Source of the DNA: Microcaldota archaeon
GTDB taxonomy: Archaea; Micrarchaeota; Micrarchaeia; Anstonellales; Bilamarchaeaceae
Assembly (NCBI GenBank): GCA_023129075.1
Contig: JAGMCT010000012.1
Location: 16,849 to 80,848 of the forward strand
Length of the DNA stretch: 64,000 nucleotides
Direction of reading: 5' to 3'
The position numbers and the translations under genes were made by a program. Below, in pieces: positions 56,639 through 62,594 of this stretch. Position 1 is the stretch's first letter, and each line of letters begins with the position of its first letter. The notes below the pieces were generated by a model. That model was given only the letters and a program-made list of their open reading frames with translations. It searched no databases and was not told the origin of the DNA.

Positions 56639-56764
56639 CGCCAAGGAGGAGATTTGAACTCCTAAGCCCCGAAGGGCACCAGATGTCTGCCATGCTTCAT
56701 CTCCATACATCGGAGCTGTTGCATGCCTCAAGTCTGGCGCGTTACCGGATTCCGCCACCTTGGC
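56639..56764 (-). tRNA. tRNA-Ser(TGA), intron 56685-56726
   Basis: Minus strand GCCAAGG...CCTTGGC-G73; long variable arm; CCAGA-CTTGAG|intron|A-TCTGG; T-arm AGGAG-TTCAAAT-CTCCT. Confidence 0.8.
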
Positions 56765-58156: not shown

Positions 58157-58351
58157 ATGGAATTTCCAGTAAGATGTTTTACATGCGGTTCTGTTATAGG
58201 CCATAGGTATGAAGAATACAAAGAAAAAGCAAAGAATACAAGCCAAAAGGAAGCTTTGGATTCTATGAACATAACAAGATATTGCTGCAGGAGAATGTTC
58301 TTGACTCATGTGGAATTGATTGATTTAGTAAAAAAATATGGAAAAATATGA
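58157..58351 (+). CDS. rpoN: DNA-directed RNA polymerase subunit N
   Basis: MEFPVRCFTCGSVIGHRYEEY...ITRYCCRRMFLTHVELID; start trimmed to the internal ATG. Confidence 0.95.
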   Translation: MEFPVRCFTCGSVIGHRYEEYKEKAKNTSQKEALDSMNITRYCCRRMFLTHVELIDLVKKYGKI

Positions 58352-58358
58352 ATAAAAA

Positions 58359-58472
58359 GGGGCCGTAAGGTAACCTGGCATCCTGCAAGCTTGGGGTGCT
58401 TGTTATCCGAGTTCAAAGGCGCCTTTTTCGTTGAAAATCAGCAAAAAAGGGCTGAAAATCTCGGCGGCCCCA
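58359..58472 (+). tRNA. tRNA-Pro(GGG) with a 41-nt intron in the T-loop (58418-58458)
   Basis: Acceptor GGGGCCG/CGGCCCC; anticodon arm CAAGC-TTGGGGT-GCTTG; T-stem CCGAG/CTCGG; splicing restores TTCAAAT. Confidence 0.85.
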
Positions 58473-58490: not shown

Positions 58491-59336
58491 ATGGAGGAAA
58501 AAGTTGAGGAAAAAAAAGAATCTATGCTGCTGCCGCAGGAAAGATATCTTGAGGCAGGAATACACATCGGTACGAGAATGAAAACCATAGATATGAAGAA
58601 TTTTATTTTCAAAAAAAGAGATGATGGCCTTTATATACTGGATCTCAGAAAGATAGATAAAAGAATAAGGCTTGCAGCAAAGCTTCTGAAGAAGTATAAA
58701 CCTGAGGATATAGTTATTGTAGCTTCAAGAACATATTCTGCAAACGCTGCAACTAAGTTTTCAAAGCTTACTGGCGTACCTGTTCTTAAGGGAAGATTCA
58801 GGCCAGGCCTGTTTACAAATACCTCTTTGAAAGGATTTATGGAACCAAAAATAGTATTTGTATGCGACCCAAAGGGAGAAGCAAATGCAGTAAGGGAAGC
58901 ATCCAGGGTAGGTACACCAGTAATTGCCCTTTGTGATACGGATAATCTCACAAAATTCATTGATTTCGTAATTCCAGTGAACAACAAAGGAAGAAAGGCT
59001 CTTGCAACCATTTTCTATCTGCTTACAAGGGAGCTGATGCTTGCACAGGGTAAGATAAAATCCTATGATGAATTTGAATATAGGATAGGTTACTTTGAAA
59101 AATTTGAGATTGCAACAGAAGAAAAGAAAGAAGAGCCAAAAGAAGAGCCCGTTATAGAAGAAGAGCCTAAGGAAAAACCAGCTAAAAAACAAGAAGAAAA
59201 GGAAAAGGAAGTTATTGAAGAATTAAAGCAGGAAAAAGAGAAAAAGCAGAAAAAGAAAACCACCAGGAAAAAAACAACAAAGAAACCAGCAAAGAAAACA
59301 GAGAAAAAAACAACAAAAAAGAAGTCATCTTCTTAA
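58491..59336 (+). CDS. rpsB: Ribosomal protein S2 (uS2) with Lys/Glu-rich C-terminal extension
   Basis: YLEAGIHIGTRMKTIDMKNFIFKKRDDGLYILDLRKID...FRPGLFTN; roughly 70-aa K/E/T tail. Confidence 0.93.
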   Translation: MEEKVEEKKESMLLPQERYLEAGIHIGTRMKTIDMKNFIFKKRDDGLYILDLRKIDKRIRLAAKLLKKYKPEDIVIVASRTYSANAATKFSKLTGVPVLKGRFRPGLFTNTSLKGFMEPKIVFVCDPKGEANAVREASRVGTPVIALCDTDNLTKFIDFVIPVNNKGRKALATIFYLLTRELMLAQGKIKSYDEFEYRIGYFEKFEIATEEKKEEPKEEPVIEEEPKEKPAKKQEEKEKEVIEELKQEKEKKQKKKTTRKKTTKKPAKKTEKKTTKKKSSS

Positions 59337-62471: not shown

Positions 62472-62594
62472 GCAGGGGTGGCGGAGCGGTCAAACGCGCC
62501 AGACTCAAGAGAAACCTTCTTTAGGGTTGCCAAAAGAAATTTTGAGAAATCTGGTGACTTAGAGTCTACGAGGGTTCGAATCCCTTCCCCTGCA
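62472..62594 (+). tRNA. tRNA-Leu(CAA), intron 62510-62548
   Basis: Acceptor GCAGGGG/CCCCTGC-A73; CCAGA-CTCAAG|intron|A-TCTGG; T-arm GAGGG-TTCGAAT-CCCTT. Confidence 0.88.

Follow-up and report, generated by a model that had tools for sequence, protein, structure and literature searches.

A tRNA-Pro(GGG) gene, very probably functional, split in the T-loop by a BHB intron in a Micrarchaeota genome

Within a ribosomal-protein cluster (L18e-L13-S9-rpoN-[tRNA]-rpsB) in the genome of an ultrasmall archaeon of the Micrarchaeota (G000; 987,661 bp in 25 contigs, assembly 93% complete) lies an apparently single-copy tRNA-Pro(GGG) gene whose T-loop is broken at 59/60 by a 41-nt intron with a bulge-helix-bulge (BHB), the motif read by the splicing endonuclease. 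We put the probability that the gene is functional and its intron removed by protein enzymes at about 93%, judging by sequence comparison. As the sole recognisable CCC/CCU tRNA of the genome, it is very probably a real gene that is hard to detect, and with it we recover an apparently essential tRNA that the detectors run, ARAGORN and the Rfam model, overlook. The window is the 64,000-nt stretch of one contig that was analysed, and the features of the locus are given in its coordinates.

58157..58351, + strand: rpoN (RNA polymerase subunit N), 7 nt upstream of the tRNA, from translation and conserved synteny
58359-58472, + strand: tRNA-Pro(GGG) gene, split at 59/60 by the 41-nt intron
58359..58417, + strand: 5' exon, positions 1-59 (acceptor, D arm, anticodon arm, 5' strand of the T-stem, TTCAAA), from sequence
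58412..58415, + strand: 5' strand of the BHB central helix, TTCA, exon positions 54-57, from cut-position scoring
58416..58418, + strand: 5' bulge AAG, predicted cut after its second base, from scoring, with the cut site placed by analogy with characterised BHB substrates
58418..58458, + strand: 41-nt intron at 59/60, GGCGCCTTTTTCGTTGAAAATCAGCAAAAAAGGGCTGAAAA, with an internal hairpin, from sequence, folding and BHB scoring
58453..58456, + strand: 3' strand of the BHB central helix, TGAA, in the intron, from scoring and its presence in the 59/60 introns of relatives
58457..58459, + strand: 3' bulge AAT, predicted cut after its second base, from cut-position scoring
58459..58472, + strand: 3' exon, positions 60-73 (T, CTCGG, CGGCCCC, A), from sequence
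58491..59336, + strand: rpsB (ribosomal protein S2), 18 nt downstream of the tRNA, from conserved synteny

The acceptor stem pairs GGGGCCG (58359-58365) with CGGCCCC (58465-58471) and is followed by A73 at 58472. The anticodon stem CAAGC/GCTTG carries the loop TTGGGGT with anticodon GGG, and the T-stem is CCGAG/CTCGG, with the insert placed after TTCAAA. Removal of the intron gives a canonical tRNA-Pro(GGG) of 73 nt with all stems and a TTCAAAT loop, in agreement with intronless orthologs, and the predicted exon-exon junction is CCGAGTTCAAATCTCGG. The whole pre-tRNA folds far better than its dinucleotide shuffles (z = -5.7). The original prediction had described a tRNA-Pro(GGG) with a 41-nt T-loop intron whose excision restores the 7-nt loop TTCAAAT; positions 58359-58472 read as it described, and the loop is regained when the insert is taken out.

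The splice motif it had proposed, a central helix TTCA:TGAA with bulges AAG and AAT and flanks GAG:CTC and GC:GC, is present in every structural detail, with 3/3 pairs in the outer helix, 4/4 in the central helix and 2/2 in the inner helix. As in archaeal BHB introns generally, a 4-bp central helix lies between two 3-nt bulges with flanking helices on either side, and its position at 59/60, other than 37/38, places the intron in the non-canonical subclass. When all T-loop cut positions were scanned, 59/60 was the single clear optimum (score 16, next register 4), and the full 3+4+2 pattern appeared in 0.24% of shuffled introns of the same composition, the best of 8 positions being taken for each. 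The TGAA strand is also present in the 59/60 introns of G031, G038, G077, G023 and G014. Counting against a spliced intron, the inner helix is just 2 bp long and is followed by a bulged G. A plain thermodynamic model gives the central helix a low pair probability, and its most stable T-arm fold leaves that helix unpaired, with the BHB conformer 2.3 kcal/mol higher. This modelled gap counts weakly against a spliced intron; in related introns it is 0.3-2.3 kcal/mol.

It had been anticipated that a default tRNA scan might miss the gene, and both finders do. ARAGORN fails to call it, also in an intron-tolerant run, and Rfam RF00005 misses it at the gathering score, at E<=5 and in a whole-genome scan. 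A custom covariance model whose training set allowed for inserts in the T-loop and anticodon loop scores the gene at 71.5 bits, a score that is not independent because the gene itself is in that set. Two tRNAs outside the training set, which Rfam's model calls only partially, were extended by the same model, each with a T-loop insert of about 30 nt near 59/60.

G000 C3:11220-11323 (L093), - strand: tRNA-Ala(CGC)
G000 C13:40013-40117 (L091), - strand: tRNA-Lys(CTT)

The Ala(CGC) insert fits a 59/60 BHB with 3/4 central pairs, and in the T-loop of Lys(CTT), read by eye, exon TCC stands opposite intron GGA where the Pro gene has TTC/GAA. Together with Pro(GGG), these two genes therefore bring the T-loop inserts in the genome to at least three. 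Anticodon-loop introns are found in its Ile, Arg, Met, Trp, Leu, Ser and Cys tRNAs, including two genes in the window.

56639-56764, - strand: tRNA-Ser(TGA), anticodon-loop intron
62472-62594, + strand: tRNA-Leu(CAA), anticodon-loop intron

Every one of the three tRNA genes identified in the window is therefore interrupted. A likely tRNA-His(GTG) with an insert of ~70 nt near the anticodon (about 38-186 of L190; G000 C2:25287-25435) is missed by RF00005 and is marginal with the custom model, and Gln(TTG) runs off the end of a contig (L191). Expected tRNAs not found in G000 after this recovery include Tyr, initiator Met, Glu(TTC), Leu(TAA) and Gly(TCC). Further hidden introns in the tRNAs of this genome are possible, and tRNA gaps in similar small archaeal assemblies merit a recheck with intron-tolerant models.

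An intact tRNA-Pro(GGG) elsewhere in the genome, which the original prediction had named as a check, was looked for with RF00005, ARAGORN and sequence searches and no second GGG gene was found in the 93% complete assembly; seven T-arm-like sequences resembling the spliced product belong to other tRNAs. The genome also encodes Pro(TGG) and Pro(CGG), and each relative in which a match turned up has a single GGG gene. The 5' exon is 93-97% identical to those of the intronless orthologs in G021, G024, G016 and G009, and the 3' exon is identical to those of G024 and G016. In a set of 18 distinct orthologs in spliced form, pairing holds in 99.7% of cloverleaf cells, and double changes occur at 8 of the 20 pairs, with none of 500 shuffles doing as well.

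These data bear on whether the insertion could have destroyed the T-loop and left a pseudogene, with CCC/CCU read by another tRNA, which we consider very unlikely. The failure of standard detectors to call the gene would fit a pseudogene, and a second copy might lie in the ~7% that the assembly lacks. However, broken stems and relaxed exons are not what is seen: once spliced, the exons form complete cloverleaf stems without a single broken pair, their identity to intronless orthologs is 93-97%, compensatory changes run across the orthologs, and a precise BHB restores the T-loop. Moreover, T-arm inserts occur in 37 of the 51 genomes scored, and a single GGG gene was found per genome. These indirect tests favour a functional, spliced tRNA-Pro(GGG) over a pseudogene. 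A real intron that is spliced in another register, or through relaxed (hBH/HBh') recognition, is about equally improbable: epsilon2 enzymes accept relaxed motifs (PMC6379350), and cuts at 56/57, 57/58 or 58/59 would yield an identical spliced loop, but the full BHB is found at 59/60 only, by the 16 to 4 margin in score given above. Least probable of all is that the insert is a mobile-element scar or an assembly error that forms a hairpin by chance and is not a spliced intron. Although tRNA genes are common integration sites and a mobile-element origin of introns has been proposed (PMC3293823), the insert has no good second match in the genome, the rpoN-tRNA-rpsB synteny is undisturbed, and the same BHB geometry recurs with unrelated inserts in relatives. 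A group I or group II intron was rejected, given that the insert measures 41 nt and Rfam has no group I or II match at the locus.

Both a splicing endonuclease, EndA, and a ligase, RtcB, are encoded in the genome. EndA has 381 aa and is co-linear with the ARMAN-2 epsilon2 enzyme 4FZ2/9W2K (E 8.2e-118), its residues 3-381 aligning with 4-387 of 4FZ2, as expected of an enzyme of three fused units and about 390 aa. In the alignment to 4FZ2 it keeps the catalytic Tyr/His/Lys (Y236/H251/K282) and the ASL Tyr-Lys (Y160/K161), and the motifs FRIY, LHSKH, VKKTF and GTYK line up; residue roles are taken from PMC12397907 and PMC6379350. Enzymes of the epsilon2 type cut non-canonical introns at a range of sites in tRNAs (PMC4033280). 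We infer that tRNA-Pro(GGG) is transcribed, cleaved and ligated in the following order. With the TTCA:TGAA central helix as the link, the hairpin of the 41-nt intron would stack on the T-stem, the epsilon2 endonuclease would cut each 3-nt bulge after its second base, and RtcB would ligate the halves and so restore TTCAAAT. Splicing would probably precede T-loop modification and RNase P/tRNase Z trimming, because the T-loop is not expected to form before splicing. For an enzyme type whose structure has been solved, the locus provides clean pre-tRNA substrates. Most relatives encode, besides their epsilon EndA, a second EndA-like protein of about 154 aa (L120:1351-1815(-), L121-L126, L129) that, judged in alignment against the window genome's own EndA, is without the catalytic His, keeps the Lys and mostly keeps the Tyr; from its sequence it is possibly an accessory subunit.

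The Pro(GGG) T-loop intron belongs to a kind already known from other archaea, given that the 59/60 site, multi-intron tRNAs in ARMAN archaea and epsilon2 cleavage of non-canonical introns have all been published. Positions 53/54, 56/57 and 59/60 are listed among non-canonical archaeal tRNA intron positions (PMC4090602), multiple tRNA introns are recorded for ARMAN-1 and ARMAN-2 (PMC4033280), the endonuclease of ARMAN archaea is permissive (PMC4033280, PMC6379350), and in some Asgard genomes more than 90% of the tRNAs contain introns (PMC11291895). With the non-canonical introns of Thermoproteales and other archaea (PMC4090602; PMC8450103) the present intron shares a junction BHB, a T-arm site, an intron hairpin and poor detection by ordinary tRNA models, whereas here the host is from Micrarchaeota, the endonuclease is of the epsilon2 type, and the T-arm of one tRNA is hit repeatedly at three sites. 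The tRNAs and epsilon2 EndA of ARMAN-1 and ARMAN-2 (PMC4033280; PMC6379350; PMC12397907) are alike in phylum, endonuclease type, catalytic triad and ASL Tyr-Lys, but G000 belongs to another lineage of the phylum. The circularly permuted tRNAs of Thermofilum pendens are likewise joined at 59/60 in the T-loop (PMC3218864), although in G000 the exons are in normal order and the intron is in cis.

The relatives sharing this tRNA are mostly named Candidatus Micrarchaeota, and S2 adjoins it in nearly all orthologous loci. We scored 51 genomes of the order by hand for inserts in tRNA-Pro(GGG): 14 are intronless and 37 have T-arm inserts at 53/54, 58/59 or 59/60. Inserts at 59/60 occur, for example, in G000, G031, G038, G076, G077, G023, G014 and G002, those at 58/59 in G019, G025 and G008, and those at 53/54 in G001, G043, G044 and G027, while one large clade has two, at 53/54 and about 58/59. 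The T-arm inserts are about 18-225 nt long, and mostly have no obvious common sequence except the BHB strand; taken over the three sites together, most of the relatives' inserts have 4/4 central helices. Intronless orthologs lack the insert precisely, in the same synteny. This forms a well-sampled natural series at a single orthologous locus, running from no intron through one and two to three, in which the gain of BHB introns, their turnover rate and T-arm interruption as a shield from integrating elements can be tested. On an S2 tree with 47 rows, the position states require at least eight changes and presence or absence at least four; gains cannot be told from losses on this short, weakly supported tree, and its placement of G000 beside the long-branched family f8, also weakly supported, was not relied on.

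In 16 genomes, nearly all of them with two T-arm introns, the 58/59 intron contains a 9-bp stem, most of whose pairs have changed in both strands, and the 14-nt loop that closes it, TACAAANACCTGCG, is almost invariant (in L138, L139, L145, L148 and L149, among others). This pattern suggests that the stem-loop of the second intron is itself under constraint and may be a functional intron RNA. The loop motif is absent from the window's own Pro intron. When six genomes were searched for other exact matches, the two inspected lay in or near protein-coding frames; an exact match in G000 (C6), within a protein-coding frame, was dismissed as chance.

A wider proposal, which we offer tentatively and regard as rather unlikely, is that the T-arm of tRNA-Pro(GGG) in Micrarchaeota is a hotspot where introns have repeatedly been gained and lost at 53/54, 58/59 and 59/60, kept by selection, for example against mobile-element integration into the tRNA gene, and that in one clade the second intron, with its covarying 9-bp stem and near-invariant loop, is a functional RNA. 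Disruption of tRNA genes as a guard against integration is an idea of Randau and Soll, as discussed in PMC3293823. Such a hotspot in one tRNA, and a second-intron class with a covarying stem and conserved loop, are less expected than the Pro intron itself, and a literature search, itself incomplete, found no earlier report of either.

Three introns, one in the anticodon loop and two in the T-arm, occur in tRNA-Pro(GGG) of G062 (L140) and G010 (L162), and a D-arm insert is found in G013 (L164; D-loop and 53/54) and possibly in G065. G003 fits a single-intron reading poorly and may conceal two introns. Pro(GGG) and Pro(CGG) of G025 (L026, L180) have similar 28-nt introns at 58/59, which suggests that the gene was duplicated or the intron transposed.
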